Assembly: GCF_003628475.1 (NCBI RefSeq) | Contig: NZ_RCAA01000043.1 | Coordinates: forward strand, 74,084 to 108,907 | DNA: 34,824 nucleotides | Source of the DNA: Enterobacter sp. R1(2018) | Lineage (GTDB): Bacteria > Pseudomonadota > Gammaproteobacteria > Enterobacterales > Enterobacteriaceae | Reading direction: 5' to 3' | Part shown: positions 2,355 through 23,182 of the stretch, piece by piece | Layout: each line of letters starts with the position of its first letter | Numbering within the stretch: position 1 is the stretch's first letter | Notes under the pieces: model-generated | What the model was told of the DNA's origin: nothing | Seen by the model: only the letters and a program-made list of their open reading frames with translations | The model's database searches: none | Translations under genes and position numbers: made by a program

Positions 2355-2386
2355 CAAAAATAAAAGGCGGAACAGAGCGTTCCGCC
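2355..2386 (-). terminator. Intrinsic terminator of the pot operon
   Basis: Perfect 8-bp stem GGCGGAAC (2366-2373) / GTTCCGCC (2379-2386) with a 5-base loop. On the minus strand it is followed by TTTTATTTTT (about 2365 down to 2356). It lies 12 bp beyond the potD stop. Confidence 0.85.
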
Positions 2387-2397
2387 AGAGATAAAGA

Positions 2398-7698: not shown

Positions 7699-7750
7699 CT
7701 GTTTAACCGGTCGCGGGCTTTGATCGGCGCTTTATTTATCAGCTTAAAAC

Positions 7751-7776
7751 AAAGGGGCGGAAAGCCCCTTTATTTA
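7751..7776 (+). terminator. Intrinsic terminator after pepT
   Basis: Stem AAAGGGGC (7751-7758) pairs with GCCCCTTT (7764-7771) around a 5-base loop, followed by ATTTAT. It lies 52 bp after the pepT stop. Confidence 0.8.
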
Positions 7777-7873
7777 TAGATAGTGTGTCAGTCTATTCAG
7801 GCCAGAAGCGGACGTAACGGGTCGCGAAGTAAAAGATTTGCTTAAGCAGAAGGGGCAGATTGGCTGTCAGAAC

Positions 7874-8476
7874 TTAATTAGCAAGACTGTGGAGTGAAAA
7901 AATAATAAGTAACGCCCCTCCGGCAATGTTCACATATTTTTTAAGCGTCACTGGATTGGTATTTTTGGCTGAAAACACCAGGGTATGACTGATGGTAATA
8001 AGCCAGATGCTCATCACCGCAACGTGGATGGAAGCCAGGGCCAGATAGTTGCCTACGCCTCCATGATTTCCGGTAAAGCGGGAAACCACCGTGAGATAAA
8101 AAATAATGGCTTTAGGATTGAGAACGTTAGCCATCCACGCCTCTCTTAAGGTGATGAAAGGCAGACCGTTTTTGGGCCGTTCGCGCTTTGCGTTCAAGCC
8201 GCTTCGGATGAGCGTGCCGCCCAGCCAAAGAAGATAAACCGTTCCTGCCGTTTTGAGGACACCGTAAATCGCAGGCGATGAGACAATAACTGCAGTTATA
8301 CCGAGCCCGATAAGGAGCGCATGGGTGTAAATGCCCAACGCTGTTCCGGCGAGCGTTCTGAAAAGGCCGTTGCGCCCGCCTGCCAGAGCGCTGCTCATGA
8401 CAAGGGTGAAACTTGCACCGGGCGAGAGGGCAACGGGCAGTAGCGCAGGCATAAAGCCGAGGAGATTAATATCCAT
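7874..8476 (-). CDS. LysE/RhtB-family amino acid or metabolite exporter
   Basis: Inner-membrane exporter of the LysE superfamily, whose members expel amino acids and related small molecules. The 200 residues carry about six hydrophobic segments and the N-terminal family signature around PVALSPGASFTLVMSSALAGG (about residues 15-35), with NPKAIIFYLTV in the middle (about 118-128), the typical RhtB helix. The substrate cannot be named. It stands alone on the minus strand between pepT and a tauE-like gene. A 13-bp word (cagaagcggacgt) occurs on both flanks, at 7803-7815 and 8625-8637. Confidence 0.85.
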   Translation of the reverse strand: MDINLLGFMPALLPVALSPGASFTLVMSSALAGGRNGLFRTLAGTALGIYTHALLIGLGITAVIVSSPAIYGVLKTAGTVYLLWLGGTLIRSGLNAKRERPKNGLPFITLREAWMANVLNPKAIIFYLTVVSRFTGNHGGVGNYLALASIHVAVMSIWLITISHTLVFSAKNTNPVTLKKYVNIAGGALLIIFSLHSLAN

Positions 8477-8757
8477 ATGTTGCAGATAGTAAGCGACATT
8501 TCACTTCGTTGCCAATATCTGGTCCGCAGCCTGCGGCGTTAAAATAGGAGGGTTTTCACTCATGGTTTATGTCTGCGCTTCTCGTTTAAAGCGCACTGAG
8601 TGTGCTACACCGACAGCTAATTATCAGAAGCGGACGTGACCGGCATCACCCGGTATTAACCGATGTCATGCCGCTGACCATCCCTAATCCTGACGGCCGG
8701 TAACCATACCCAGCTAATCTGTCCCGTCAGCATCTGCGTTATCCGGCCGCACAAAAA

Positions 8758-9489
8758 TTATTTTTCAGACCAGGCGCTGCACATTAATCCTGCCCCGGAA
8801 ATGAACAAAATGACGTCAATCAGCACTGAAAAATGCGTTGCGGATAATCTTCGTACCAATGCTTTGCTGCTCAGGGTTCCAAGCAAAATACCGCCGCCGA
8901 CCAATACTCCTGTGAGTGCGACCCGCATCGAAAGAGCATCCTGAAACGCAAATGTACCGGCTTTACTCATATACAGAAGAAGGGCGCTCGCAGCTTCCGT
9001 TCCAATAAAAGCACCACCGCTTAACCCATATGCCGTAAAAATCGGCACGCTCACCGGGCCTGTCGACAGCACCAGACCGGTCAGGAAACCGACGAATCCA
9101 CCACAGAACCCCAACTGCTTTATCGAGAGCGTCCATCGCTTCTTTTTCAGGTGGCGCCGGACCGGGATCATGATCCAAAAGAAAATGCCTAATGCGCAGT
9201 CTATCGTCCATGCGGGCAGAGCGAGCAGCACATGAGCGCCCAACGAAGCTGCCGGCACGCCGGGTAATATATAGGCCAGCGTAGCGCGCCAGTCGATCTC
9301 ACGCCACCAGACCGCTATCCGGGAGAGGTTACCAACAATAGCGGCTACGGCCATTATCGGGATGGCCGATTTGGGCCCGAACGCGCCGACCATCAGAGGC
9401 AGCAAAAGCAAAGAAGAGCCTGTGCCCACTATCCCACTCAATGCTCCGGCAATTATCGCAATTAAGGTTACACCGATATAAGTTTCCAT
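8758..9489 (-). CDS. TauE/SafE-family membrane transporter (putative anion/sulfite exporter)
   Basis: A 243-residue polytopic protein, roughly eight hydrophobic segments, with the TauE/SafE pattern: an N-terminal GALSGIVGTGSSLLLLPLM half and a repeated second half containing TGLVLSTGPVSVPIFTAYGL. Family members are proposed to move sulfite, sulfoacetate or other organic anions across the inner membrane; the substrate is not inferable. AGGAAG lies 4 bp before the ATG. It diverges from a LysR gene at 9588 across a 98-bp gap, suggesting LysR control. Confidence 0.85.
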   Translation of the reverse strand: METYIGVTLIAIIAGALSGIVGTGSSLLLLPLMVGAFGPKSAIPIMAVAAIVGNLSRIAVWWREIDWRATLAYILPGVPAASLGAHVLLALPAWTIDCALGIFFWIMIPVRRHLKKKRWTLSIKQLGFCGGFVGFLTGLVLSTGPVSVPIFTAYGLSGGAFIGTEAASALLLYMSKAGTFAFQDALSMRVALTGVLVGGGILLGTLSSKALVRRLSATHFSVLIDVILFISGAGLMCSAWSEK

Positions 9490-9587
9490 GACTTCCTGAT
9501 TTTTTATTTTAAAGCCTTCATCTTATTGAGTGCCTTTAGATCATAATATCGATTAATACTGACCAGTGATGAGACGAAAAGTCACAG

Positions 9588-10496
9588 ATGAAAAAGCGAA
9601 ACCTACCGCCGTTGAATGCATTGAGGCTGTTCGAGACGGCGGCGCATTCAGGCAGCCTGAGTGCCGCAGCCGAAGAGCTGGGCATCACCCACGGCGCCGT
9701 CAGCCGTCAGATCAAATTGCTGGAAGAGTGGTTAGGGCAACCTTTATTTGAGCGTCAAGGGCAACGCAACGTTGCCGCCGAGCATGCCCGCGCGTATGCA
9801 GCGGAAATCAGCGCCGCTTTTGACATTATCAGCGATGCTTCAATGCGTTTCGGAAAAGCACCGAATGCAAGGATCATAAGAGTAAATGCCCAGACAACCC
9901 TCGCGATGCACTGGTTGATACCTCGCCTGCCGGAATTTCATACCCGGCATCCAGACATTGAAGTCTCGGTGTCCACATCAAACAGTTCGGAGATCAAAGG
10001 CCTCTCTGGCTTTGACGTTTTGATTCGACGCGAGCCATTGGACAAGCCCGAATGGCGTTATTTTGATAAACGCCCGCTGTTCGAAGAACACCTCACGTTG
10101 ATTGCTGCCCCAAAACTTTTAGCCGGGCAGCATTTAGATAAACCTGAAGATCTTGCCACACAGGTATTTATTACGTCGCATACGCGAGTGGGAGAGTGGG
10201 AAAGATGGATGAAAAGAGCCGGCATCGAAGCTTTGCGGCCGCTGCGCTTTCAGCGCTTTGAACACAACTATGTCAGTCTTCAGGCGGTCATTGATGGCGT
10301 CGGGGTAGGTATTGGTGGACTGCCAACCCTTGCACATGATTTAAAAGAGAAAAGGCTGCTGAACCCCTTGCCGATTGAGGTTAAAGGCAGCAAATACGTG
10401 GCCTTAATCGCGCCCGACGTTGATAAGTCATCTGCACTCAACCTGTTTCTGGAGTGGCTTGAACGGGAGGCCTCTGCGGTAGGTCAAACGGCGTGA
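9588..10496 (+). CDS. LysR-type transcriptional regulator (GcvA-like)
   Basis: 302-residue LysR regulator. The winged HTH occupies residues 7-65 (PPLNALRLFETAAHSGSLSA, then AAEELGITHGAVSRQIKLLE); the GcvA-type opening LPPLNALRLFEAAAR is recognisable. A periplasmic-binding-protein-like effector domain follows (INAQTT-type core, GVGIGGLPTLAHDL near the end). It is transcribed away from the TauE-type gene, the usual LysR/target geometry, with a small ABM monooxygenase gene 100 bp downstream. No inducer can be predicted. Confidence 0.9.
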   Translation: MKKRNLPPLNALRLFETAAHSGSLSAAAEELGITHGAVSRQIKLLEEWLGQPLFERQGQRNVAAEHARAYAAEISAAFDIISDASMRFGKAPNARIIRVNAQTTLAMHWLIPRLPEFHTRHPDIEVSVSTSNSSEIKGLSGFDVLIRREPLDKPEWRYFDKRPLFEEHLTLIAAPKLLAGQHLDKPEDLATQVFITSHTRVGEWERWMKRAGIEALRPLRFQRFEHNYVSLQAVIDGVGVGIGGLPTLAHDLKEKRLLNPLPIEVKGSKYVALIAPDVDKSSALNLFLEWLEREASAVGQTA

Positions 10497-10595
10497 AACC
10501 CTCAAATTAGCGTTTGTCCCTGGCGCCGCTTTTTGCTCTTGCGGGTAATTAGCGATATGTTCATCTGTCTAAACCGAAACCCGACAGGATACTTT

Positions 10596-10910
10596 ATGTC
10601 TTTGCAGGAACAACCAGCCTACATCATCCGTATGCGAGCCAAACCAGGTATGGGCGACAGACTGTTCGAACTGGCCACGGACGGGATGATAAAATCCGGC
10701 GCTTCCGATCGTTACATCCTTGCCCGCGAAGACGAAGATCCGGACGTCCTCTGGAACATGGAGGTGTTTAAGTCAGCTGCGGTGAAAGATAGCTACGAGA
10801 ATAGCCCTTTAGCCGACGAACTCCGCGACGAAATAATCAGCCTGCTGGCCGAGCCGCCAATGCGTATTGCGGTTCATCCCTATTCGGCTCTCCCTTACGA
10901 CAAATCTTAA
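10596..10910 (+). CDS. Antibiotic biosynthesis monooxygenase (ABM) domain protein
   Basis: A 104-residue dimeric alpha/beta barrel protein of the ABM/quinol monooxygenase type, judged from YIIRMRAKPGMGDRLFELAT and the later ILAREDEDPDVLWNMEVFKSAAVKDSY. Such proteins oxidise quinols or detoxify small aromatics without cofactors, but many are uncharacterised. The frame is open upstream to an ATG at 10533; I chose the ATG at 10596 because AGGA lies 7 bases before it and the ABM fold begins there. It is probably in the same regulon as the preceding LysR gene. Confidence 0.75.
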   Translation: MSLQEQPAYIIRMRAKPGMGDRLFELATDGMIKSGASDRYILAREDEDPDVLWNMEVFKSAAVKDSYENSPLADELRDEIISLLAEPPMRIAVHPYSALPYDKS

Positions 10911-10926
10911 GCCCCGCATACGGGGC
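10911..10926 (+). terminator. GC-rich hairpin after the first ABM gene
   Basis: GCCCCG-CATA-CGGGGC begins immediately after the stop codon. It is followed by CTCGACAATTTTTA, a late T-run, so it is a plausible but weak intrinsic terminator. Confidence 0.5.
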
Positions 10927-11256
10927 CTCGACAATTTTTACAGGATGTTTCTGATGCGACATCCGGAAAACCTTGCCGTATATAGTTGGCGGGCCAAGGG
11001 CCAGGCTAGCTATCCCGCACTCATCCAGCGTTTGCAAACGGGCATCAGCTGGAATTTTTTAAATTTTACAGCCGTAAATAATTTGCGGCCCCGCAAGATA
11101 AATCATTACCCGCCCTGAAACGTCCGATCTCTGCGTGAGATCGCATCCGTCTGATAGCTTTGTGGTTTCCACGATACATCCATACTTCGGTGCAAACCGA
11201 AGCATCATACTTTCGTCGGTAATAAGCTCACTGAAAATTAACCACGGAGCAGACGA
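10927..11256 (+). promoter_or_regulatory. 330-bp leader region of the ABM-ACT-ArsR operon with two hairpins
   Basis: No convincing gene is present; short open frames here lack family similarity and ribosome sites. Two perfect 7-bp stems occur: CGATCTC-TGCGT-GAGATCG (11125-11143) and CTTCGGT-GCAA-ACCGAAG (11185-11202), the latter with a GNRA tetraloop. Either could be an operator dyad for the ArsR-type regulator encoded by the operon or a 5' leader structure. Confidence 0.4.
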
Positions 11257-11580
11257 ATGATTGCGGTGATTTTCGAGGCGGAAGCCTTACCAGAAGCACA
11301 GGAAAGGTATCTTCAGCTTGCTGCTGAACTGAAGCCGCTCTTGTCAGACACGCCAGGATTTATTTCTATTGAGCGCTTCCAGAGTCTGACGACACCTGGA
11401 AAAATCCTTTCTTTATCATGGTGGAAAGATGAGGAATCCGTGGCTGGATGGAAGCAAAATATTATGCATCTGGCAGCACAGAAAGAAGGTAAACGGTCGA
11501 TTTTTTCATTCTACAGAATACGCGTTGCCAGCGTATTTCGTGATTACTCATCTGATAAGGAAGCACATCAGCATGTATGA
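11257..11580 (+). CDS. ABM-superfamily monooxygenase-like protein (operon gene 1)
   Basis: A 107-residue protein with the ABM ferredoxin-like fold pattern: MIAVIFEAEALPEAQERYL, then LLSDTPGFISIERFQSL and ILSLSWWKDEESVAGWKQ. It resembles the YqjZ/heme-degrading-type ABM group, but no heme ligand can be assigned. GGAGCAG precedes the ATG. It is the first gene of a tightly packed three-gene operon. Its stop overlaps the ATG of the ACT-domain gene by 8 bp. Confidence 0.75.
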   Translation: MIAVIFEAEALPEAQERYLQLAAELKPLLSDTPGFISIERFQSLTTPGKILSLSWWKDEESVAGWKQNIMHLAAQKEGKRSIFSFYRIRVASVFRDYSSDKEAHQHV

Positions 11581-11965
11581 TATCCACGTCATCCTCAACA
11601 ACACCCCCGGTTCGCTCGCCTTACTCGGCAGTGTGCTGGGCTTAAACGGGATTGGTCTTGAAGGAGGAGGCGTGTTTTCAACGCCGGAAGCCGGGCACGC
11701 GCATTTCCTTGTTGAAGACGGTGAGAAAGCCCGCAAGGTTCTGACGGCTGCAGGCTTTGATATCGGCAAAGTGTGCTGGCCTCTGATAAGAAAATTATCT
11801 CAGGATCGCCCGGGAGAGCTTGGGGAGATAGCTGACGCCATAGCCAGGAAGGGTATTAATATTCTGGTACAGTACAGCGATCACAGTAACCGTCTCATTC
11901 TGATTACAGATGATGATATCCGGGCTGCGGAAGCTACACGAAAATGGGCGTTACCTTCTGAATGA
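11573..11965 (+). CDS. Tandem ACT-domain protein (operon gene 2)
   Basis: A 130-residue protein built of two ACT-like halves: YDIHVILNNTPGSLALLGSV at the start and KLSQDRPGELGEIADAIARK from about residue 74. ACT domains bind amino acids or other small ligands and regulate enzymes or repressors. There is no attached catalytic domain. The ATG at 11573 lies inside the 3' end of the preceding gene. A longer frame from 11429 exists but would run deep into that gene, so I reject it. The gene ends in a 4-bp ATGA overlap with the ArsR gene. Confidence 0.75.
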   Translation: MYDIHVILNNTPGSLALLGSVLGLNGIGLEGGGVFSTPEAGHAHFLVEDGEKARKVLTAAGFDIGKVCWPLIRKLSQDRPGELGEIADAIARKGINILVQYSDHSNRLILITDDDIRAAEATRKWALPSE

Positions 11966-12672
11966 ACTTTCTAAAAACTGCATATGACAGTGAGCCGGAA
12001 GATTCTCTTGAAAAATCCATATCGCTGGTCGCTTCTGCCATCTCTGACCCGTCAAGGGTCAGTATTTTGTGCGCCCTGATGGATGGGCGCGCGTGGACAG
12101 CTACCGAATTCAGCGCGGTAGCAGGCATTGTCGCATCCACGACCAGCGGACATCTTACCCGGCTTCTTAACAACGGGCTGGTTATCTGCCTGAGTCAGGG
12201 GCGGCACCGCTATTACAGCCTTGCGGGACAACATATCGCCGAACTACTGGAAAACCTGATGGGGGTTTCTATGCATACCTTCACTTCCCCCACGCCCCGG
12301 ACGCCGGCATATCTGCGTTACGCACGCACCTGTTATGACCATCTCGCAGGGGAACTCGCTGTAAATATTTACGAGTTTATGCTGCAGGAAAAATGGCTTG
12401 AGGCTGACGGCACCGCGCTGACGCCCGCCGGAAAATCCCATTTTCAGCACCTTGGGGCAGTGCTCACACCACGCCCGCGGCGCAGGGCCTGCTGTCCGTG
12501 CCTCGACTGGAGCGAAAGACGCTTCCATCTTGGGGGAGAGGCGGGTTCGGCGCTGATGACGCTTTTTCTGCAGAAAGAATGGATAACCCGCACGCAGGGA
12601 TATCGTGAAGTGAAGGTGACCATCAGTGGCAGAGTTGCCCTGTGTCGCCAGTTCAGTTTGAATCTCGCCTAA
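11962..12672 (+). CDS. ArsR/SmtB-family winged-helix regulator with Cys-rich C-terminal domain (operon gene 3)
   Basis: A 236-residue regulator. An ArsR-type winged helix fills residues 18-95 (SLVASAISDPSRVSILCALM; STTSGHLTRLLNNGLV; GRHRYYSLAG). The C-terminal half is unlike the metal sensors and contains RRRACCPCLDWSERRFHLGG (about residues 172-192), a CCxC cluster followed by a conserved CLDWSERR-type block seen in this subfamily. The cluster might sense a metal or electrophile, but this is inference. It is coupled to the ACT gene by ATGA and probably autoregulates the operon. Confidence 0.8.
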   Translation: MNFLKTAYDSEPEDSLEKSISLVASAISDPSRVSILCALMDGRAWTATEFSAVAGIVASTTSGHLTRLLNNGLVICLSQGRHRYYSLAGQHIAELLENLMGVSMHTFTSPTPRTPAYLRYARTCYDHLAGELAVNIYEFMLQEKWLEADGTALTPAGKSHFQHLGAVLTPRPRRRACCPCLDWSERRFHLGGEAGSALMTLFLQKEWITRTQGYREVKVTISGRVALCRQFSLNLA

Positions 12673-13097
12673 TCCCGGATGTTTTCAACGCCGTTGTAGC
12701 GCTAAATTGTTTTGCTTTGTTGCACAGGCTTATTGGCCGGGATCGGTTTCTGCGCCAGGCAGCCTGTTTCCCGTTCATTAAACCATTCTGATTTTAATCA
12801 TGCTTACATTGTCACCTGACTGCCTCTGGATAAGCGATGGTGAATTTTCACGACTTTAGTAGCCATCTTTTAAGTTGTTTACTGTGCCTTAAGATTATCG
12901 ATAACCGCAGGTACATCTGTTTTCCGCTCATAGCAGCCCTGATGTCGCTTCGGTATGTCCGCTTTGTGCCCAAGCGGAAGTTGCCTGCTCGTTGTACTTC
13001 GTGTTTTCAGGATAGAAGACATGAACATATCACCATGATAATCATGGCAACATTTGGTACTATTTCCTTACTTTTATAAAGGAAGAGGATTTTTTAA
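12673..13097. other. 425-bp intergenic region upstream of the DUF4041/GIY-YIG gene
   Basis: No supportable gene. It contains a decayed hairpin TCCGCTT/AAGCGGA (12958-12978), related to short TCCGCT motifs elsewhere in the accessory region, and a perfect 15-bp palindrome at 13033-13047. The ribosome binding site AAGGAAGAGG (13079-13088) serves the gene at 13098. Confidence 0.5.
13033..13047. promoter_or_regulatory. Palindromic candidate operator upstream of the DUF4041/GIY-YIG gene
   Basis: CCATGAT-A-ATCATGG is a perfect dyad with 7-bp arms, ending 50 bp before the ATG at 13098. It embeds a GATAAT word that could act as a -10, though no good -35 is seen at the right distance. The binding protein is unknown. 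Confidence 0.35.
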
Positions 13098-14627
13098 ATG
13101 GTCCTGGGACTAGCAATAGCGGTAGGTGTTCTTGCTGTTTTATTCGTGGTTATGATTGCTATACATATTTTATTGAAGAAAAAGCATGCAATCGATCTTT
13201 TACGTTATAGCAAGATTGTTGATCTTGAAGAAGAAGCACGAAAAATGAAAAAGGCTATGGATGATGAAGAAAAGTCCAGCCGCAATGCTATTGATAAAGA
13301 AGTGAAAGACAAGCGTACTGAAATAGATAGTGAAGTGAATGAAAAACGCCAAGCGATAGATAAAGAGGTTAAAGATAAAGATGCAGATATACAGAGGCGT
13401 GAAAAAATAGCGAGAGAGATCATTGCATCTCAGGAGCAAGAGCTAACCGACTTAAAAAAATCGTATAATGAAAAGCGCCAGCTCTTGTTGGATCTCTCTG
13501 CAAAATTAGCAGAAGTTAGTGATTCTGTTGATATGATTGATTATGGTATATATAAACCGCGTTTCGACTATCATGATTCCAAAGCTTTCCAGGAAGCCAT
13601 TAGTTACAATAAAGAAAGGCAGAAAAGTCTAATTCGACAAGATGCTGCTTGTGACTTTAATACAAGTTGGGAGGTGAATGGTAGTAAGTCGGAAGGTAAA
13701 AAAATGATCAAGCGTTATGTGAAATTGCTCGTCAGAGCGTTCAATAGCGAGTGTGATGCCGCGATAGGAAAAATTAAGGCAGGCAATGTTGAGCAACTTA
13801 AAAAACGTATTGAAAGCGCTTTTGATGCACTCAATAAATTTGGACAATCAATGAATATAAGTATCACTTATGATTATCTGAATTTGCGGCTGGAAGAATT
13901 ACTGCTTTGCCACGAAAAAGAACTTAAAATTCAGGATGAGAAAGATATCCTTAGAGAAGAACGGGAATTGCAACGAGAGGAAGAGAAAGCACAGCGTGAA
14001 TACGAGAAAGCTATTCGCGATGAACAAAAGGCAGAGAAAGACTTCCAGAAAGCAATGGAAAGAGCAAGAAAAGAGCTTGAAAAAGCAAATGCTGAAGAAA
14101 AATCCCGTATTGAAGCCAAAATTGCTGATCTCGAACTTCAGGTAGAAGAGGCAAGGGCTTTGTCTGAGCGCGCAAAATCTCAGGCACAGTTAACTCGAAG
14201 CGGCCATGTCTATGTGATATCTAATATTGGAGCGTTTGGAGAGAATGTCTATAAAATTGGTTTGACTAGACGACTTGAACCTGAAGATCGTGTTAATGAA
14301 CTGGGATCTGCATCAGTGCCTTTTAAATTTGATATCCACGCTTTGATTTACTCCGATGATGCTCCAGCACTTGAAACTAGCTTGCACAATGAATTTTCTG
14401 CGCACCGGATAAATATGGTAAATAATCGCAAGGAATTCTTTAAAATTAATCTATCAGATATTGAGAGCAAGGTTAAATTACTTGGTTTTGATGCGTCATT
14501 TACGGAGTATGCACTTGCTCCTGAATATCGTAGTACGCTCTCTATTTTGAATGCAAAAGACAAAGCAAAAACAATTGCAGATGCAGTAGAGCATAAAGTT
14601 GAAGAGTTGTTCCCCGAAATGGCTTAA
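13098..14627 (+). CDS. Membrane-anchored DUF4041 + T5orf172/GIY-YIG nuclease, SNIPE-like antiphage candidate
   Basis: A 509-residue protein. Order of parts: transmembrane helix at residues 3-26 followed by KKKH; a basic/acidic coiled coil to about 140 with three 11-residue repeats at 64-96 (AIDKEVKDKRT, EIDSEVNEKRQ, AIDKEVKDKDA); a DUF4041-like region at about 145-270 (IDYGIYKPRFDY onward); a highly charged coiled coil at 272-365; and a T5orf172/Mug113 GIY-YIG domain at 369-460. The nuclease core is present: HVYVI (Tyr372), VYKIGLTRR (Tyr385, Arg391), metal-ligand Glu426 in ALETSLH, then KEFFKI. This architecture is that of SNIPE, a reported inner-membrane nuclease that cuts phage DNA during injection; the assignment is by architecture recalled from knowledge, not a search. 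The gene is AT-rich compared with its neighbours, has its own ribosome site and terminator, and stands alone. Confidence 0.85.
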   Translation: MVLGLAIAVGVLAVLFVVMIAIHILLKKKHAIDLLRYSKIVDLEEEARKMKKAMDDEEKSSRNAIDKEVKDKRTEIDSEVNEKRQAIDKEVKDKDADIQRREKIAREIIASQEQELTDLKKSYNEKRQLLLDLSAKLAEVSDSVDMIDYGIYKPRFDYHDSKAFQEAISYNKERQKSLIRQDAACDFNTSWEVNGSKSEGKKMIKRYVKLLVRAFNSECDAAIGKIKAGNVEQLKKRIESAFDALNKFGQSMNISITYDYLNLRLEELLLCHEKELKIQDEKDILREERELQREEEKAQREYEKAIRDEQKAEKDFQKAMERARKELEKANAEEKSRIEAKIADLELQVEEARALSERAKSQAQLTRSGHVYVISNIGAFGENVYKIGLTRRLEPEDRVNELGSASVPFKFDIHALIYSDDAPALETSLHNEFSAHRINMVNNRKEFFKINLSDIESKVKLLGFDASFTEYALAPEYRSTLSILNAKDKAKTIADAVEHKVEELFPEMA

Positions 14628-14652
14628 AGAAGTTTTAATTTCATATTAAAGG

Positions 14653-14684
14653 CTAGACAAACCCGCTTCGGCGAGTTTGTCTAG
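14653..14684 (+). terminator. UUCG-capped hairpin after the DUF4041/GIY-YIG gene
   Basis: CTAGACAAACCCGC (14653-14666) pairs with GCGAGTTTGTCTAG (14671-14684), with one C-A mismatch and a TTCG tetraloop. It is followed by GTAGTTTAGTTTAT, a broken T-tract. It begins 25 bp after the stop. Confidence 0.7.
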
Positions 14685-15042
14685 GTAGTTTAGTTTATGC
14701 TATTATAGCGTTGCTATAATAATTCAGATTAAACATGAATTTTTCAGGTTTCATCGATACAGCTGTTGCATCACGCTCACGTGAATGCTTCTTTTGGATG
14801 TAAGCATCCAGCTTAACCAAATCATTTGCTTATAAAGAATTTTCAGAGAACGGTTCAGGTATGATCTAAGGCTAATGTCCGCTCCTCGCTCAAAGCAGAC
14901 CGTGCGCCTACGTCCGGCTGCTTATCGTTTTCTTATAGTTACGTTGATATATTCTGGCTTGATGCTTCTGCGGTCCGGGCACCTGAACCCAAAATCGCAC
15001 GCGAGCATGACGTGCAGTTCAGGTGAGTCGTAAATACTTTGC
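14685..15042. other. 358-bp intergenic region between the SNIPE-like gene and the CGNR gene
   Basis: No gene is supportable. Contents: a perfect dyad ATTATAGC-GTT-GCTATAAT (14702-14720); a TCCGCT-type decayed motif (14874-14901); and a long bulged hairpin, CACCTGAAC (14980-14988) with GTTCAGGTG (15017-15025), enclosing a second stem GCACG (14997-15001) / CGTGC (15011-15015). The last lies just beyond the 3' end of the minus-strand CGNR gene but lacks a T-run in either direction. Confidence 0.5.
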
Positions 15043-15633
15043 TCAGCTCTGTTCCGGTTTTTTCCTTGAGCGAAACGCCGCTACTTTCATACGATTGCCG
15101 CAGGTAGCCATACTGCACCAGCGGCGGCGATGCGATTTACTAAGGTCGTGGAAGAGGAGAATACAGTCATGCGCCTCACACTGGCGGACGAATTCGAATT
15201 TATCGCTGGTGACGAGATTTACCAGAGCATCGGCGACCGGCCACAGCAGGCTTGCCGGACTGCTGTCCCTTGGATGAACGTCGACCCGAAATTGCTGAGC
15301 GTCGTCATCCCATCTCAGCTTCCTCGCAGGGCGGCCCGCCTCAAGTACCTGATTGACAACCGTGAGATCTGTTGACTTGCCGTTCAGCGCGGCGTTCACC
15401 ACGGCCCTGGCGACATCACGAAGCTGACGGGCTTCAGCCAGTAGCCCGGACGGCGTTTCAATACTGCCAGATAATACCCCCGCCAGCGTAAGCCAGTTTA
15501 ATACGCTGCGATCGTCGTGCAGGCTGTCATGCAACTCCTCACCTGTCCGGTATTCACTGTTGATGAAATCCAGCGCCAGGTTGTCAGCCAGAAAGGGAGC
15601 TGCCGAAGAAATACTGTTAGGGTTCATATTCAT
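15043..15633 (-). CDS. CGNR zinc-finger (ABATE-domain) regulator
   Basis: A 196-residue protein with an N-terminal ABATE-type helical domain (PFLADNLALDFINSEYR at about 13-29) and a C-terminal CGNR zinc finger. The finger has Cys in CEAHDC, followed by SKSHRRRWCSMATCGNRMKV (about 165-184). Such proteins are predicted stress-related transcription regulators. It diverges from an alpha/beta hydrolase across 86 bp holding four inverted GTAACC half-sites. The ATG at 15633 abuts a half-site and has no Shine-Dalgarno; a second Met lies two codons later. A TATAAT on the minus strand at 15653-15648 would give a nearly leaderless mRNA. Confidence 0.82.
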   Translation of the reverse strand: MNMNPNSISSAAPFLADNLALDFINSEYRTGEELHDSLHDDRSVLNWLTLAGVLSGSIETPSGLLAEARQLRDVARAVVNAALNGKSTDLTVVNQVLEAGRPARKLRWDDDAQQFRVDVHPRDSSPASLLWPVADALVNLVTSDKFEFVRQCEAHDCILLFHDLSKSHRRRWCSMATCGNRMKVAAFRSRKKPEQS

Positions 15634-15708
15634 TGGTAACCGATAAAATTATATTGACAGGTTACCAAAATTCCTCGTAACCTTCAAATTCAAACTTTAC
15701 AGGTTACG
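15633..15708. promoter_or_regulatory. Shared operator with four GTAACC/GGTTAC half-sites
   Basis: Two inverted pairs: TTGGTAACC (15633-15641) with GGTTACCAA (15660-15668), and CGTAACCT (15676-15683) with AGGTTACG (15701-15708). Spacing between paired half-sites is 24 and 25 bp, about two helical turns, so all four lie on one DNA face. TTGACA (15654-15659) is a possible -35 for the hydrolase and TATAAT (15653-15648, minus) a -10 for the CGNR gene. The likely ligand is the CGNR protein (inference). Confidence 0.65.
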
Positions 15709-15719
15709 CAGGTGCCATC

Positions 15720-16667
15720 ATGACGTCTTCTCATCCAGGTTCAGCTTCAGAAAGTACGGTCTGCTTACCGGGTGATGCCGGGCAATCTGCCGATTCGGCT
15801 TTTTTGGTTCATTACCGCTACGAGCAGGTTGATAACGTGAGGGTGTTTTACCGTGAGGCAGGCAGGCCTGATGCTCCCACAATACTGCTGCTTCACGGCT
15901 TCGCCGCATCATCGTTTATGTTCCGCGACCTTATTCCGCACCTTGCCGAGCGTTACCACGTGATCGCCCCAGATTTGCCAGCATTCGGTTTTACCGAAGC
16001 CCCGGCAAGAGGCGACTATGCCTACACCTTTAGCCAGATAGCGGAGACGATTGGCCAGTTCGCCGAACAGCTCAGCCTTCATACCTACGCGCTCATGGTT
16101 CACGATTATGGCGCCCCGGTAGGCTGGCGTCTGGCGATAGCCCATCCGCAGCGGGTGAGTGCTATCATTTCTCAGAACGGCAACGCCTATGAGGAAGGGC
16201 TGGGAGAGGGCTGGGCGCCTATTCAGAAGTACTGGCGTGAACCTACGCAGCAAAACCGGGATGCCCTGCTCGATTTTCCCACCCCGGCCTCTATTAAGTG
16301 GCAATACCTTGAAGGCGTTACCGATCCGAGCCTGGTTTCACCGGATGGTTATACGCTGGAGGGGCTACAGATATTGCGGCCAGGCAATGCTGATATTCAG
16401 CTTGATTTGTTGCTGGATTACGCTTCGAACGTGGCGATGTATCCCGCTTTCCAGCGGTATTTCCGTGAGCATCAGCCACCTCTGTTGGCCGTGTGGGGAA
16501 AAAACGATCCGTTTTTCCTTCCTGCGGGTGCCGAGGCCTGGAGCCGGGACCTGCCCGAAGCAGACATTCTCTTCTATGACACCGGACACTTCGCGCTCGA
16601 AACCCACGGTGAAGAAATCATTCCTGTCATTCGTAAGTTTCTGGACAAGAATATTGGGCAACATTGA
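15720..16667 (+). CDS. Alpha/beta-hydrolase, haloalkane dehalogenase/epoxide hydrolase type
   Basis: 315 residues. Motifs: oxyanion HG at 59-60 (LLLHGFAASS); nucleophile elbow VHDYGAPVG with Asp129 rather than Ser, as in haloalkane dehalogenases and epoxide hydrolases; acid Asp263 in WGKNDPFF; catalytic His290 in DTGHFALE. The aspartate nucleophile implies a covalent alkyl-enzyme intermediate; the real substrate is unknown. The N-terminal 30 residues are low-similarity, and a later start is possible, but AGGTG precedes the ATG at 15720. It diverges from the CGNR regulator and is probably its target. Confidence 0.8.
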   Translation: MTSSHPGSASESTVCLPGDAGQSADSAFLVHYRYEQVDNVRVFYREAGRPDAPTILLLHGFAASSFMFRDLIPHLAERYHVIAPDLPAFGFTEAPARGDYAYTFSQIAETIGQFAEQLSLHTYALMVHDYGAPVGWRLAIAHPQRVSAIISQNGNAYEEGLGEGWAPIQKYWREPTQQNRDALLDFPTPASIKWQYLEGVTDPSLVSPDGYTLEGLQILRPGNADIQLDLLLDYASNVAMYPAFQRYFREHQPPLLAVWGKNDPFFLPAGAEAWSRDLPEADILFYDTGHFALETHGEEIIPVIRKFLDKNIGQH

Positions 16668-16781
16668 GGATTTAAAAAATTGTCTGAACGGCTGCTCAGC
16701 CGCAAGGCGGAACTGAATGCCCATTGCTCGCGCATAACCAGCCTTATTTCTTCCGTTTCCACAGGCCGGGCAGGGTGGCGC

Positions 16782-17672
16782 TCAACGGGAAGCGGCTCGC
16801 CCACCTTTGCGCAGTATCGCAAGCAGTGCCTGAGCCGCCCGAGAAGACTTTCCGGCTTGCGAACAAATCAGACCAAACTCGCGGTGGATAGCCGGTATCA
16901 GTGGCGCCACGCGCAGGCCGCGCCGATCCTCGGGTAGCGTTGATTCGGGGACCAGCGCCAACCCCATGTCTTCGCGCACCAGCATGCAGGCGCTGATCCA
17001 GTCGCGTACCGTTACCCGTACGTCGGACAGCTGCAGACCTGCTTGTTCCATCAGGCTGTTTCCGTTCACCGCGCAGCCGCCGGTTGCGAGAATAAAAGGT
17101 TGGTCCGCCAGCTCCTCAAGCGTGATGCCGCGCGCCCTTGTACCTCTTCCGGACTTGTGATTGGCTGGCAGTACCGCTACCCATGCGTCCCGCCCCAGTA
17201 TCACTTCCGCACGGCCGGGGGCAGGATTCAGCACTACGCCCAACTCGACGTTATCCGCGCCCAGCCATTCCTCCACTTCCTCGTCCGTACCTTCCAGCGC
17301 CACCAGCTCGATATCCGGATGCAGGCGCCGAAAGTCCCGCAGCAGTCCGGGCAACAACGTCGAAATCACCGAGGGAAAGCTGGCCAGGCGGATGCGCCCG
17401 CCGCTCAGGCCGCTGTTGTCGTCGGCCAGACGACGGATCTCATCCAGCTGCGCCAGCATGGCCCGCGCATGAACGATCGCCTGCTCGCCAAGGGCCGTAA
17501 CGCTGATAAGCCGCCGCTCACGGGTGAACACCTGAAACCCAAGTGAGGCTTCCAGCTGGGCGATAGCTTGGCTCGCGCCAGACTGAGTAATGCCCACGGC
17601 GTCGGCGGCCCGCGAGATATTGCCGGCATCGGCTACGGCTACCAGCAAGCGCCAGTGCAGAAGGTTCATCAT
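16782..17672 (-). CDS. LysR-type transcriptional regulator
   Basis: 296 residues. HTH at about 3-62 (LLHWRLLVAVADAGNISRAA; GITQSGASQAIAQLEASLGF), then a LysR substrate-binding domain beginning RIRLASFPSVISTLLPGLL (about 93-111). It diverges from a glutathione S-transferase gene across 130 bp, so it probably regulates that gene. The 114 bp between its stop and the preceding hydrolase holds no feature I can name. The sequence is GC-rich compared with the SNIPE-like gene. Confidence 0.9.
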   Translation of the reverse strand: MMNLLHWRLLVAVADAGNISRAADAVGITQSGASQAIAQLEASLGFQVFTRERRLISVTALGEQAIVHARAMLAQLDEIRRLADDNSGLSGGRIRLASFPSVISTLLPGLLRDFRRLHPDIELVALEGTDEEVEEWLGADNVELGVVLNPAPGRAEVILGRDAWVAVLPANHKSGRGTRARGITLEELADQPFILATGGCAVNGNSLMEQAGLQLSDVRVTVRDWISACMLVREDMGLALVPESTLPEDRRGLRVAPLIPAIHREFGLICSQAGKSSRAAQALLAILRKGGRAASR

Positions 17673-17730
17673 GATTATCAGTAGCTCAGCTAATACCAGT
17701 TATTTAGAACATTAATTTTACAGATAACGT

Positions 17731-17756
17731 CGCCGTAAGCACAGTGTGTTACGGCG
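17731..17756. promoter_or_regulatory. Dyad between LysR and GST genes
   Basis: CGCCGTAA (17731-17738) and TTACGGCG (17749-17756) form a perfect 8-bp inverted repeat, extended inside by CAC/GTG. It sits 47 bp before the GST start. It may be a LysR operator or a leader hairpin; it is not an exact T-N11-A site. Confidence 0.45.
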
Positions 17757-17802
17757 CCCAACAAGGGGCCGCGCAACTGACTTTTAACTTTCCGGAGAAC
17801 TT

Positions 17803-18408
17803 ATGAAGCTGTATTACGCCCCTCATACCTGCTCGCTGTCGCCACACATCGTGCTGCGTGAACTCGACCTGAAGTTTGAGCTGGTCAAAGTGGACAACAA
17901 GACCAGGCTGACCGCCGACGGACGCGACTTCCGCACCATTAACCCCAAGGGCTATGTCGCTGCGCTGGAGCTGGACGACGGGCAAATCCTGACCGAAGGA
18001 CCGGCCATTGTACAGTACCTGGCCGATCTCAAACCGGAAAGCGGGCTGGCGCCGCGGGCGGACAGCTGGGCGCGGGTGCGCCTGCAGGAGTGGCTGAACT
18101 TTATCACCAGCGAAATACATGCAGGCTCGGCGCCGTTGTTCAACGCCGCGCTGCCCGAGGAGGTCAAAGCGATTTTTCGTGAGAAGCTGTTCAGGCGATT
18201 CGACCTTCTTCAGGATACGCTTGCCGGACGGGAGTATCTGATGGGCGCTTCTTTCAGCGTTGCTGACGTCTACTTGTTTACCGTGCTGGGCTGGTGCAAA
18301 TTTTTCTCCATTGACCTTGATGGCTGGCCCGCGCTGTCGGCCTATATGACCTGTATTAACGCGCGACCTGCCGTGCAGGCCGCCTTGTATGCCGAAGCCG
18401 CTCGGTAA
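17803..18408 (+). CDS. Glutathione S-transferase, beta class (GstA-like)
   Basis: 201 residues, the length of E. coli GstA. The thioredoxin-like N-terminal domain begins MKLYYAPHTCSLSPHIVLRE with the beta-class Cys10; the cis-Pro/glutathione-binding segment is NPKGYVAALELDDG and LTEGPAIVQYLAD (Glu65); His106 in EIHAGSAPLF matches the conserved beta-class His106. C-terminal helices contain FSVADVYLFTVLGWC. It conjugates glutathione to electrophiles or acts as a peroxidase in the cytoplasm. GGAG lies before the ATG. It is divergent from the LysR gene and convergent with the MerR gene, 24 bp away. Confidence 0.88.
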   Translation: MKLYYAPHTCSLSPHIVLRELDLKFELVKVDNKTRLTADGRDFRTINPKGYVAALELDDGQILTEGPAIVQYLADLKPESGLAPRADSWARVRLQEWLNFITSEIHAGSAPLFNAALPEEVKAIFREKLFRRFDLLQDTLAGREYLMGASFSVADVYLFTVLGWCKFFSIDLDGWPALSAYMTCINARPAVQAALYAEAAR

Positions 18409-18432
18409 TATCTGAATAACGGCCGTTGCGGT

Positions 18433-18852
18433 TCATTCTGACGGCTGGTTATGTACAGCCAGCTGTTCTGTCAGCCGCTGTATGTTTTCCTCGCAGGAGA
18501 TCCCATCCGGTCGGTTTGCAATGCTGGCGATCAGATTCAGCAGCTCGGTCTTGCTCTCCTCCAGCTGTTTTTGCATCAATTCGATCTCCGAGACGCGCGT
18601 TTTCAGCGACTCAACCAGCCTCTCGTGATCCCACTTTTTCTGTCGCTGCGGCAAAAAGCGGCGAATTTGCTCAAGTGAAAAGCCCGCCCGCTGCGCGTTA
18701 TCGATGATTTTCAGCAGGCCTGCCGCTTCCGCAGAATAATTTCGGTAACCGTTTGTCTGACGCGCTGGCGGAGCGAGCAGACCCTGCGCTTCGTAAAAGC
18801 GAATACGTGAGGGCGTAATCCCCGTGGCTTTTGCCAGTGCTCCAATTCTCAT
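18433..18852 (-). CDS. MerR-family transcriptional regulator
   Basis: 139 residues. The MerR winged HTH opens the protein (MRIGALAKATGITPSRIRFY, then EAQGLLAPPARQTNGYRNYS), followed by the dimerisation coiled coil (about 80-115). There are no C-terminal metal-binding Cys pairs; the only Cys (in ISCEEN, near residue 119) is single, so a metal-sensor role is unlikely and an organic or redox signal more plausible (inference). It diverges from an SDR gene whose promoter has the MerR-type long spacer. Confidence 0.88.
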   Translation of the reverse strand: MRIGALAKATGITPSRIRFYEAQGLLAPPARQTNGYRNYSAEAAGLLKIIDNAQRAGFSLEQIRRFLPQRQKKWDHERLVESLKTRVSEIELMQKQLEESKTELLNLIASIANRPDGISCEENIQRLTEQLAVHNQPSE

Positions 18853-18869
18853 AGCCTTTACCCGCTCTC

Positions 18870-18900
18870 TTGACCTTAAAGTTAACTTTAATCTTATACT
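18870..18900 (+). promoter_or_regulatory. MerR-type promoter of the SDR gene
   Basis: TTGACC (-35, 18870-18875) and TATACT (-10, 18895-18900) are separated by 19 bp. The spacer contains the perfect 16-bp palindrome TTAAAGTTAACTTTAA (18876-18891). An over-long 19-bp spacer with a central dyad is the hallmark of promoters that MerR-family activators untwist. Confidence 0.8.
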
Positions 18901-18974
18901 TTTCAGACGTCCGCTGTTTGCGACGCACGCCGCAGTGTATCTCTTGCATTAGTGAATAAAAGCGAGGAACTGAA

Positions 18975-19937
18975 ATGCAAACGATTCTGGGGGCCAACGG
19001 CCAGATTGCCCAAGAGCTTGCCCGAGAGCTGAAACGCTCATACACCGATGACCTGAGGCTGGTAAGCCGCAGCCCGCGAAAGGTAAACGACAGCGATGTT
19101 ACCGTAGCGGCAAATCTGCTTGATGCCGAACAAACGCTGGATGCGGTAAAAGGGAGCAGCATTGTCTATTTTGCCGCAGGGTTGCCCGCAGATTCGGCGC
19201 TGTGGGAGCAACAGTTTCCGACAATGCTGAAAAATGCGCTCGATGCAGCCCGCACGGCGCAAGCCCGTTTTGTCTATTTTGACAACACCTACATGTATCC
19301 GCAGAACGACAATCCACAGACGGAAGAAACGCGCTTCGCTCCGCGGGGGCGGAAAGGAAAAGTACGTGAACTGATGACGAACATGGTGCTTGAAGAGATG
19401 AGGCGGGAGGCCATTCCGGTCATTATCGGGCGCGCGCCGGAGTTCTATGGGCCGGGGAAGACGCAGAGTTTCACCAACGCGTTTATCATCGACAAACTGA
19501 AGGCTGACAAACGGCCGCGTGTCCCGGTGCGTGACGATAAATTTCGTACGCTCATCTGGACGCCTGACGCCAGCCGTGCCCTTGCTGTGCTCGGTAATAC
19601 TGCGGATGCCTGCGGGCAGAGCTGGCATCTGCCCTGCTGCGACGATCGCCTTACCTACAGGCAGTTTGTTTCTCTCGCCTGTGAGATCTTCGGAAAAGAC
19701 GTGGAGTACAGCGTCGTCAGCAAGCTGGCGTTGACCTTCGCCGGTCTTTTTTCGCAAGGAGCACGTGAGATGCGTGAGCTGCTGCCGCGGTATGAACATG
19801 ACAACCTGTTCGAATCGGCAAAGTTTAAGCATCGTTTCCCGGATTTCTCCGTCACGTCTTACCGTGAGGGTCTGGAAGACATCCGGCGGGAATGGAGCAG
19901 CAGGCAGAAGAAAGCGAACGCCTCCGACTCACGTTAA
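18975..19937 (+). CDS. NAD(P)-binding epimerase/dehydratase-like protein (atypical extended SDR)
   Basis: 320 residues beginning with a Rossmann glycine motif LGANGQIAQELARELK (about residues 5-20; GxxGxxA variant), then RFVYFDNTYMYPQND around residue 105, where an SDR Tyr would sit, and IIGRAPEFYGPG. The strict YxxxK catalytic pair is not obvious: the downstream basic stretch is RGRKGKVRELM. It may be an atypical SDR that binds nucleotide to sense or reduce a carbonyl compound. GAGGAA precedes the ATG. It is the presumed target of the divergent MerR regulator. Confidence 0.8.
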   Translation: MQTILGANGQIAQELARELKRSYTDDLRLVSRSPRKVNDSDVTVAANLLDAEQTLDAVKGSSIVYFAAGLPADSALWEQQFPTMLKNALDAARTAQARFVYFDNTYMYPQNDNPQTEETRFAPRGRKGKVRELMTNMVLEEMRREAIPVIIGRAPEFYGPGKTQSFTNAFIIDKLKADKRPRVPVRDDKFRTLIWTPDASRALAVLGNTADACGQSWHLPCCDDRLTYRQFVSLACEIFGKDVEYSVVSKLALTFAGLFSQGAREMRELLPRYEHDNLFESAKFKHRFPDFSVTSYREGLEDIRREWSSRQKKANASDSR

Positions 19938-19990
19938 AAAGTACTCTTATGATAACGTGTAATCACCTGCATCCTGTTGAAGGGGCTTGC

Positions 19991-20389
19991 ATGCTGAACG
20001 GGCTGAATCACATAACGATCGCTGTAAGTGATATTTCAAAAAGCTTTAATTTTTACGTTAACCTACTTGGTTTTATACCTAAGGCAAAATGGGCCAGCGG
20101 GGCTTATCTTTCTTCAGGTAACCTGTGGTTATGTCTTTCTGCTGATGCTGTTGCTTCTCATGAGGATTACACTCACTACGCATTCAGCATCCGTAGCGAA
20201 GACTTCGATGCGTTTGCTACTCATCTGAAATCAGCGGGCGTTACCGAGTGGAAAACCAATAAGAGTGAAGGAAAATCTATCTATTTCCTGGATCCTGATG
20301 GGCACAAGCTGGAAATACATGATGGCGATCTGGATAGCCGCCTTAAAGATTGTATGAAGCATCCCTATGAGAAAATGGAGTTTTTCTAG
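19991..20389 (+). CDS. fosA: FosA-type fosfomycin glutathione transferase
   Basis: 132-residue glyoxalase-fold enzyme that opens the fosfomycin epoxide with glutathione, using Mn2+ and K+. Metal ligands His7 (LNHITIAV), His62 (DYTHYAF) and Glu108 (GHKLEIH) are present, with Thr9, Lys88, Ser92, Ser96, Tyr98 and Arg117 matching the Pseudomonas FosA substrate and K+ site with a constant -2 offset. The motif SIYFLDPDGHKLE is intact. The start is at the ATG at 19991, with AAGGGG about 7 bp before it; an upstream open frame is rejected because it overlaps the SDR gene. Sequence divergence and a more AT-rich composition than its neighbours suggest separate acquisition. Confidence 0.88.
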   Translation: MLNGLNHITIAVSDISKSFNFYVNLLGFIPKAKWASGAYLSSGNLWLCLSADAVASHEDYTHYAFSIRSEDFDAFATHLKSAGVTEWKTNKSEGKSIYFLDPDGHKLEIHDGDLDSRLKDCMKHPYEKMEFF

Positions 20390-20458
20390 AGTTTTAAAAT
20401 TTAGCGCAACGATGATGTTTTGATAAATCCGAGTGAATCGCAGTGGTTAATCCGGTCG

Positions 20459-21322
20459 CTAACCGCTCTGTAACAGGAATTGCCGGAGTGCGGCCGTAAG
20501 TTCTTCTGGCGCTTCTTCAGCCATATGGTGGCCGCTGTTGATTGATTTGCCGCGCACATCCGGCGCCCAGCTTTTCCAGATACCCAGTATGTCGCCATAA
20601 ATCTCTTCCAGGTCATCATGTTTTGACCATAAGCAGAGCGTCGGGCACTGGATTGTTCGTCCGAGCTGACGATCCTCAAGCTCGTGCTGTTTATCTATAG
20701 CCAGACCAGCGCGATAGTCCTCAAGCATCCCATGTACGGTTGCCGGATCGTGTATGGCACGCCTGAACTCCTGGTACTCCTCGTCTCCCATGGTGTCCGG
20801 CTGGCCGCCATACCATTTGTCCGGGTCAGCCAGAATGGCCCGCTCCGGCTTTTCCGGCTGGGCAAAGAAAAACCAGTGATACCACTGGCGGGCAAACTTC
20901 TCGTTACAGCGGTTGAGCGCTTCAAGTATGGGAACCGAATCCAGTACGGCAAGGCGCGTGATTCGGTCCGGATAATCAAGGGCAGCCCTGTAGGCCGTGT
21001 AACTTCCTCTGTCGTGTCCGACAAGCGCAAACCGCTCAAAGCCAAGCTGGCTCATTAACTCAATGCAATCTTTTGCCTTAGCCCTTTTAGAAGAGCCCGC
21101 GTGCTCAGGCAGGTCGGCAGGTTTAGAGGAGCGGCCGAAACCCCGTAAGTCAGGGCAGACAACGGTAAATGATTTAGCAAGTTCGGGAGCTACCTTCGAC
21201 CAGGTCGCATGAGTACGGGGATGACCATGTAGCAGCAAAACCGGCGGGCCATTACCGCCATAACGCACGTTAAGAACTGCTTCAGAGAGCGTTATTTCTT
21301 TGTGCGTAAATCCTTCAAACAT
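20459..21322 (-). CDS. Alpha/beta-hydrolase of the haloacetate (fluoroacetate) dehalogenase family, variant active site
   Basis: 287 residues. Residues align in number with the fluoroacetate dehalogenase FAc-DEX: nucleophile Asp104 and Arg105 in VGHDRGSYTAYR, acid Asp128 in LAVLDSVP, halide pocket His149-Trp150 in QWYHWFFFAQPEKPE, and catalytic His265 in NSGHHMAEEAPE. The second carboxylate-binding Arg expected at 108 is Tyr here. HGHPRTHATW and CPDLRGFGRSS are standard for the family. The fold and mechanism class are secure, but fluoroacetate itself may not be the substrate. It is convergent with fosA. Confidence 0.83.
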   Translation of the reverse strand: MFEGFTHKEITLSEAVLNVRYGGNGPPVLLLHGHPRTHATWSKVAPELAKSFTVVCPDLRGFGRSSKPADLPEHAGSSKRAKAKDCIELMSQLGFERFALVGHDRGSYTAYRAALDYPDRITRLAVLDSVPILEALNRCNEKFARQWYHWFFFAQPEKPERAILADPDKWYGGQPDTMGDEEYQEFRRAIHDPATVHGMLEDYRAGLAIDKQHELEDRQLGRTIQCPTLCLWSKHDDLEEIYGDILGIWKSWAPDVRGKSINSGHHMAEEAPEELTAALRQFLLQSG

Positions 21323-21440
21323 AGGCTCTTCTCCTGCCCGATCTGGAGTACAGATTATAGACGAGTCTGGCGGGGTAGCTTTTGCACAAGGTGGAGGTGA
21401 GGGTTAAACGCTTTAAGATAGGGCCGGTCCGCAGCCATTT

Positions 21441-21767
21441 TTATGTCAGGAGCGGATGTTCATAACGGATCCCGGTCATGCAGCGGGATAAGTCCCAGGT
21501 TTGTTTACCGGGGGCACTCCACCACGGCATGAGCCTGCCCAGAAAGCTGAGCATGGCCTGATTAAGAAGGACTGGCTGCTGTAAAGGCGCGAAATGACTT
21601 ACGCCGGGTAAAATGATCGGCTTTGCGTCACTACTATTTGCTGTCAGCTTCGCGAAAGGGCCCGGCGGCTTCTTTGTCAAACGTCCGGCTGCCAGAGATA
21701 AAAATGTGGTAAATCTGGAGCAGTTAACCTCTGGTATTTTACCAACCGGATGTTTAGAATTGCTCAT
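21441..21767 (-). pseudogene. Remnant of an alpha/beta-hydrolase (C-terminal fragment)
   Basis: The open frame encodes 108 residues, but only the central part looks like a known protein: AKPIILPGVSHFAPLQQPVL (about residues 48-67) followed by LNQAMLSFLGR, the His-containing C-terminal motif of alpha/beta hydrolases. The nucleophile elbow, HG motif and acid region are absent upstream. The first 45 residues and last 30 show no family similarity. A second minus-strand fragment just upstream (about 21764-21890, METLAGRGVLDTTDVC and onward) may be another piece of decayed coding sequence. I regard the whole 21323-21895 interval as gene debris. Confidence 0.45.
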
Positions 21768-21895
21768 CGCTGCCTCGTGCAGGCAGCGACTAACCTCGCG
21801 AAAAATTGATCGCCCAAGCGGTCAACACATACGTCGGTTGTGTCCAGTACACCTCTTCCGGCCAGCGTTTCCATGATTTTTGACAGGAACGCTGT

Positions 21896-23089: not shown

Positions 23090-23130
23090 AAAAATATAAA
23101 TATAAAGATCTTCATTAATCATCTGAGTTT

Positions 23131-23173
23131 CCCGCCTTCTCAGCCAGTCAGTGACTTCAGCTGAGGAGGCGGG
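23131..23173. terminator. Hairpin between the convergent MFS and roxA genes
   Basis: CCCGCCTTCTCAGC (23131-23144) pairs with GCTGAGGAGGCGGG (23160-23173), 14 bp with one G-T wobble. No clear T-run follows on either strand, so a bidirectional terminator is only likely. Confidence 0.55.
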
Positions 23174-23182
23174 CGAGAGACA

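Follow-up and report, generated by a model that had tools for sequence, protein, structure and literature searches.

In a 34,824-nt stretch of the Enterobacter sp. R1(2018) genome (hereafter, the window), the gene at 13098-14627 on the plus strand very probably encodes a SNIPE-type, membrane-tethered anti-phage nuclease that came in as a mobile cassette. In the mechanism that we propose, DUF4041 would bind both DNA and an incoming tailed phage's tape measure protein, the GIY-YIG domain would then cut the phage DNA at injection, and the chromosome would be spared by the nuclease's membrane tether. This copy would have come in as a ~1.9-kb cassette of the prophage or integrase-bearing island kind. 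The membrane location, tape measure recognition and DNA cleavage predicted here are extrapolated from the characterised E. coli protein, as set out in the available part of its report (PMC13190303).

A membrane-anchored DUF4041 protein had been recovered in a functional selection, according to the accessible text of PMC9519451, and PD-lambda-1 was subsequently characterised as SNIPE for one E. coli protein, with the mechanism described in 2026 (PMC13190303). In the available part of the latter report, SNIPE sits in the inner membrane with its N terminus in the periplasm, its DNA binding is promoted by DUF4041, and its partners are ManYZ and the tape measure protein. An E414A substitution causes loss of defence, the protein becomes toxic when deprived of its transmembrane (TM) segment, and the adapter is the fast-changing part across the family (PMC13190303). 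Nothing concerning the present locus was found in the accessible portions of the literature on DUF4041.

Family membership and gene signals

The gene is a 509-aa open reading frame (ORF) running from ATG to stop. Pfam DUF4041 (PF13250) matched residues 209-264 (E 7.5e-25, 87 bits versus a curated cut-off of 27), and MUG113 and T5orf172 matched residues 385-460 (2.4e-18) and 369-460 (7e-17), respectively, so that all three families named for checking in the initial annotation were found above their curated cut-offs rather than missing. Two PADLOC models of PD-Lambda-1, the earlier name of SNIPE, were also matched over nearly the full length of the protein (PDLC03976, residues 12-496, 4e-170; PDLC03977, 1.7e-156), as was PHROG 1847, a family of unknown function (5e-161). 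With a residue-level alignment added to the Pfam and PADLOC matches, the SNIPE-like identity originally proposed is borne out, and membership of the SNIPE family is well supported at the level of sequence.

A Shine-Dalgarno-like site (AGGAAGAGGA, 13080-13089, plus strand) lies 8 nt before the ATG, within a leader common to the copies on two viral contigs, L045 and L046. On the 3' side of the gene, a terminator-like inverted repeat (14653-14684; 14-nt arms, 93% complementary) has its terminator score on the minus strand and is also present in L045. The gene is AT-rich, as had been noted, with a GC content of 36.8% and 40.1% in its two 1-kb windows versus 48-60% in the other 32. A scan for promoter consensus sequences, a weak test, gave no promoter-like site 5' of the gene on its strand; since the region as a whole held no more such sites than shuffled sequence (4 versus a shuffle mean of 5.5), the missing upstream promoter says little.

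A shared cassette and its chromosomal setting

The gene forms the core of a shared cassette (12981-14895, plus strand) with 91.5% DNA identity to an Enterobacter chuandaensis locus (L125) and 93.4% to an integrase-bearing island (L229). Homology to L045 ran from 12963 to 14900 (95.3%), and that to L046 was shorter (13004-14682, 88.2%). At the protein level the closest copies were those of L045 (97% identity), L229 (96%) and L046 (92%), with L045 and L046 matched at full length, while the Enterobacter chuandaensis copy aligned in two pieces (97% and 90%). The cassette in the latter (L125:5001-6498) is disrupted by a frame break and has TTG at its start, which indicates that some copies are dispensable. 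It adjoins integrase-like fragments (with Pfam matches below the curated cut-off) and an ORF labelled by eye as an IS-like transposase. In L229, an integrase gene (4672-5856, minus strand) adjoins the cassette, and beside it the stretch 1357-5856 holds a gene for a DUF927/primase-helicase and a pair of integrase genes. Because ~3 kb around the gene are common to L125 and L229, these two were counted as one context.

In the viral contigs the surroundings were of a different kind. The L045 contig, presumably P2-like given its gene order, carries the SNIPE gene in antisense orientation, with a gene for baseplate assembly on one side and one for tail completion on the other. In L046, SNIPE lies between the minor tail genes, which follow the tape measure gene, and a tail assembly gene; L046 and L228 are apparently one and the same lambda-like provirus. 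The ~1.9-kb cassette has therefore been seen, with nearly constant ends, in three settings unrelated to one another, namely on a P2-like viral contig, on an island with an integrase gene and in the window itself. The gene had initially been described as stand-alone, and it is indeed alone in the chromosome, unlike the L045 and L046 copies, which are surrounded by phage tail and baseplate genes; however, it belongs to a cassette found in viral contigs and islands. This sharing suggests that the window copy arrived by way of a mobile element. Repeat-like elements at 12956-12980 and 14876-14900 were considered as a mobile-element signature and rejected. The 5' element is missing from L125 and L229, and the degenerate repeat pattern has a single match in the bacterium's own genome, at the 3' element, so that no transposon-like mechanism is claimed.

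The cassette sits in a variable interval between pepT and roxA (7699-23182), these and neighbouring gene names having been assigned on presumed synteny with E. coli. Upstream lies pepT and downstream roxA-phoQ-phoP-purB-hflD-mnmA-nudJ-rluE-icd, which we take to be the E. coli order. The pepT-roxA gap measured 15,490 bp here and 6,663, 22,393, 8,843, 12,282 and 16,109 bp in five congeners; for 18 other family genomes the median was 288 bp, with 17 of the 18 below 2.1 kb and the remaining one at 6.3 kb. This count covers 24 of 60 genomes (the bacterium's own, the five congeners and 18 family members in which a single contig holds both genes), and leaves out one genome that was 49% complete with broken genes (G033), 11 reduced family genomes lacking the two genes and 24 from outside the family. 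The interval is thus a genus-level insertion hotspot, 6.7-22.4 kb long and of variable content in all six genus genomes.

By blastn (E <= 1e-5), three of the congeners matched nothing within the gap apart from <100 bp at its edges, a fourth (G002) had one piece in common with the window (20468-21390), and the fifth (G003) had several, none of them over 10503-17511. No empty insertion site was found in the 60 genomes, and G003 gives no precise site for the cassette alone. The genes flanking the cassette had their best matches in different genomes (left, G024, 81%; right, G025, 71%). DUF4041 was found above the cut-off in one of six genus genomes (none of the five congeners) and in 12 of 392 family genomes, this one included, which agrees with the earlier description of the region as accessory.

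The interval was also considered as a defence island, and this was rejected: PADLOC, run on ten interval ORFs besides SNIPE, returned only generic winged-helix (Csa3) and MerR-like (mad1) matches. The Csa3 matches (7.7e-13) fall on an ArsR-type regulator upstream of the cassette (11962-12672), and look like generic winged-helix similarity, given that there was no other CRISPR-type match among the ten ORFs. Towards the far end of the window, a phage integrase gene (33765-34463, minus strand) lies just downstream of the icd-like gene, icd being one of the sites where lambdoid phages attach in E. coli; this suggests that a prophage continues beyond the edge of the window.

The same cassette could also be read as a silent relic, that is, a gene for superinfection exclusion left behind in the chromosome by a prophage and since then deprived of expression and selection. 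We regard this as unlikely, even though the cassette is common to phage and island copies, none of the 13 interval neighbours scanned with Pfam was phage-like, the gene's strand lacks a promoter-like site upstream (by the weak test above), and the copy in Enterobacter chuandaensis has a frameshift and begins with TTG. Against it, the window copy is intact and has retained both its leader and the terminator-like hairpin. In addition, dN/dS was 0.10 in comparison with L045 (dN 0.012, dS 0.121) and 0.07 in comparison with L046 (dN 0.040, dS 0.550), although selection may have acted mostly in phages; in comparison with phage ES18, dS was saturated. At the codon level these ratios indicate that the protein has been maintained across copies, rather than that the window copy is active. 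On balance we favour an intact defence gene that would have been brought in by a mobile element.

Protein architecture and the predicted nuclease

The protein has a single hydrophobic segment, with the 13 Kyte-Doolittle windows of 19 residues scoring >1.6 all starting within residues 1-14 and a maximum of 3.09 at residue 2. This corresponds to the one N-terminal transmembrane helix seen in the initial annotation (residues 2-26; 13101-13175, plus strand), which is also a helix in the AlphaFold2 model, where residues 1-20 have block pLDDT values of 59 and 74. A KKK motif directly after the helix is consistent with a predicted N-out/C-in orientation. By hydropathy, the window protein is thus predicted to possess the SNIPE-type N-terminal membrane-targeting segment.

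The model was built from an alignment of 60 hand-picked sequences (the window protein, L046, which had been lost at the 90% identity step, and 58 of 116 non-redundant sequences), and had a mean pLDDT of 80.8 and a pTM of 0.44. It shows helices at residues 2-148, 258-329 and 332-367, with a small mixed region containing DUF4041 between the first two, and then an alpha/beta domain. Residues 27-140 and 265-368 consist of K, R, E and D to 51-52%. A long charged helix, putatively the adapter coiled coil (residues 27-148; 13176-13541, plus strand), takes in most of the diverged N-terminal region; it is followed by DUF4041 (residues 209-264; 13722-13889, plus strand), which has a net charge of +3 over the segment as a whole rather than over a surface, and by the linker helices (residues 265-367; 13890-14198, plus strand). 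In SNIPE, the DNA-binding face of DUF4041 carries positive charge. Of the two coiled coils described earlier around DUF4041, the long charged helices that flank it were recovered in the model, while the coiled coils themselves are putative, read from the helices and their charge content.

As a stand-in for the prototype, we used P0003, a protein of Escherichia phage PhiR26_1 annotated as PD-lambda-1, which is usable as a prototype-like comparator because all nine published SNIPE residues that were checked are present in it. The two proteins share the order of TM segment, long helix, DUF4041, helix and GIY-YIG domain (500 aa for P0003 versus 509 aa), the Pfam and PADLOC models matched, and the catalytic glutamate (E414, equivalent to E426 in the window protein). 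They differ in setting, the window gene standing alone in the chromosome and the P0003 gene lying beside the phage replication genes of PhiR26_1. Identity was 31% for residues 1-26, 13% for 27-113 and 32% for 114-208, versus 43% in DUF4041, 46% for residues 265-368 and 67% in the nuclease domain. These regional values mark the adapter part as the fast-changing part of the protein. The coiled coils and bridging region had been described as diverged, which holds for the N-terminal 113 residues but not for DUF4041, conserved at 91% identity with gp19 of Salmonella phage ES18 and at 43% with P0003.

With the N-terminal adapter diverged (13-38% by region), the phage range may differ from that of the prototype. 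The host has a ManXYZ operon, with ManX, ManY and ManZ orthologues 90, 92 and 93% identical to those of E. coli, so that the published SNIPE partner exists here; as the adapter is 13-31% identical to P0003 by region, use of ManYZ is uncertain. Prototype positions E223, W257 and E264 are K235, L269 and L276 in the window protein, and L253 corresponds to L265. In the available part of the prototype's report, all four positions were changed in mutants with enhanced defence, the first three of them in mutants enhanced against Bas14, and E223K was both an enhancing change against Bas14 and noted as frequent among homologues (PMC13190303). Lys235 thus occupies the site of an enhancing substitution, and is not rare, given that remark and the presence of K in 24 of 120 aligned rows (E in 54 of 120).

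The divergent adapter also bears on whether this SNIPE-family nuclease acts mainly against other incoming DNA, conjugative or transforming, rather than at siphovirus entry. That the adapter is so unlike that of prototype-like P0003 would fit such a role, as would the variation in membrane targeting across the family (by simple hydropathy, a clear N-terminal membrane helix in 67 of 120 rows and none in 53). We nevertheless consider it highly improbable, since close copies lie within phage tail clusters, where their natural role is phage-phage competition, and relaxase and competence families were absent from the 13 interval neighbours scanned with Pfam.

An anti-phage nuclease is the reading retained here for the C-terminal domain (residues 369-462; 14202-14483, plus strand), which was identified by Pfam, active-site residues and structure matches. 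Tyr372, Tyr385, Arg391 and Glu426 were confirmed letter by letter, and the Glu426 codon (14373-14375, plus strand) aligns with the catalytic E414 of SNIPE. The family alignment comprised 120 rows (161 of 164 loci, reduced to 116 at 90% identity, plus four added rows; the other three loci were left out because the ORF search covered the plus strand only). Y372, R391 and E426 were present in all rows, and Y385 in 116, with F in the other four, a figure biased upward because one of the peptide patterns with which rows were collected, over FGENVYKI, contains Y385.

Structural comparison with VIA matched residues 365-471 to Slx1 (6sei; Z 6.9, rmsd 3.1 A, 93 aligned, 19% identity) and residues 368-471 to At-HIGLE (7wme; Z 7.0, rmsd 2.9 A, 89 aligned), where Z <8 may reflect a mere common arrangement; these two GIY-YIG rows alone were used, most others being generic helices outside the nuclease domain. 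Foldseek against the PDB gave nothing at E <= 0.001, with Slx1 chains at E 0.60-1.3, and a sequence search of solved structures with an alignment as query returned no match at E <= 0.01. Matches in BFVD included viral models named T5orf172 (E 2.9e-4 and 4.3e-4), while the top match (3.7e-20, 24% identity) is a protein of viral origin that bears the name helicase. The predicted nuclease assignment thus rests mainly on Pfam and the active-site residues. Elsewhere in the bacterium's own genome, a 228-aa frame (L023:1501-1794) gave a second, weak GIY-YIG-type match to the SNIPE nuclease region (E 8.9e-6, 35% identity). GIY-YIG nucleases such as Slx1 and UvrC work in repair, and the model matches Slx1, but a structure-specific host repair enzyme outside defence is scarcely credible for a gene of such patchy distribution (one of six genus and 12 of 392 family members above the cut-off), with a mobile context, a membrane helix and a nearly full-length match to a defence model in PADLOC.

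SNIPE copies in phages

ES18 gp19 (L002:3923-5452) is annotated as 'possible moron; function unknown', and is part of the phage's tail cluster, where the tape measure gene lies two genes further downstream. Like the window protein it has 509 aa, and its residues 8-504 match PD-Lambda-1 (2.7e-168), so that ES18 probably carries a SNIPE. Identity with the window protein was 31% for residues 1-26 (5/26 without gaps), 38% for 27-113, 67% for 114-208, 91% in DUF4041, 84% for 265-368 and 84% in the nuclease domain. A recent swap of the TM segment relative to ES18 was rejected, as identity climbs gradually by region (31, 38, 67, 91%) and no sharp breakpoint is inferred.

Placement of the gene was compared inside and outside this clade. 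Clade relatives (67-92% identity) lie near the tape measure gene or its stand-in, in the same orientation, in ES18, L046/L228 and L230, L045 being the exception, in a tail region but antisense. In L230, a sheathed-tail locus, a 67%-identical SNIPE is directly upstream of a protein in the tape measure position, which among PHROGs matches a tail fiber/lysozyme family best and tape measure families less well. Outside the clade, seven annotated phages were hand-picked from 37 phage records with a match, a small sample for which no statistic is given. SNIPE was near repressor, integrase or replication genes in six of them and unclearly placed in the seventh (Marinitoga camini virus 2). In EJ-1, MismyG, 813R9 and PLE3 it is flanked by repressor or regulator genes on one side and integrase genes on the other. 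PhiR26_1 has it amid the replication and immunity genes of lambda type, and in Klebsiella phage ST13-OXA48phi12.3 exonuclease genes lie to one side of it and a gene for RepB-type replication to the other. In a separate observation, E. coli STEC316 encodes a 409-aa protein with a SNIPE GIY-YIG domain directly after the antiterminator Q gene (L007:2210-3439), in which no DUF4041 match was found at E <= 0.01; it is possibly a DUF4041-less SNIPE relative.

It is conceivable, but in our judgement rather improbable, that in the window's clade SNIPE and the tape measure gene move together as matched partners. The tape measures of L046 and ES18 matched in short pieces only (26% over 172 aa for the piece with the lowest E-value), and with both as queries tblastn gave no match (E <= 1e-10) in the other 79 of 80 viral loci. 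This rules out one tape measure type shared among carriers, and is neutral for the matched-pair reading. If the pairing were true, each phage would have a tape measure adapted to evade the SNIPE that it carries itself, amounting to allele-specific superinfection exclusion, and a cassette captured by a chromosome would protect against phages whose tape measure is foreign.

The window copy is a new member of the SNIPE family, and what is new here is that it forms the core of a ~1.9-kb cassette shared with a viral contig and islands, so that one SNIPE cassette has been seen in a variable zone of a chromosome as well as in islands that bear integrases and on a P2-like viral contig. The comparison also suggests a function for ES18 gp19. 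In the sub-clade that the two proteins form, DUF4041 and the nuclease are well conserved and the N-terminal adapter has diverged, a combination that makes adapter-swap tests of phage range practical.
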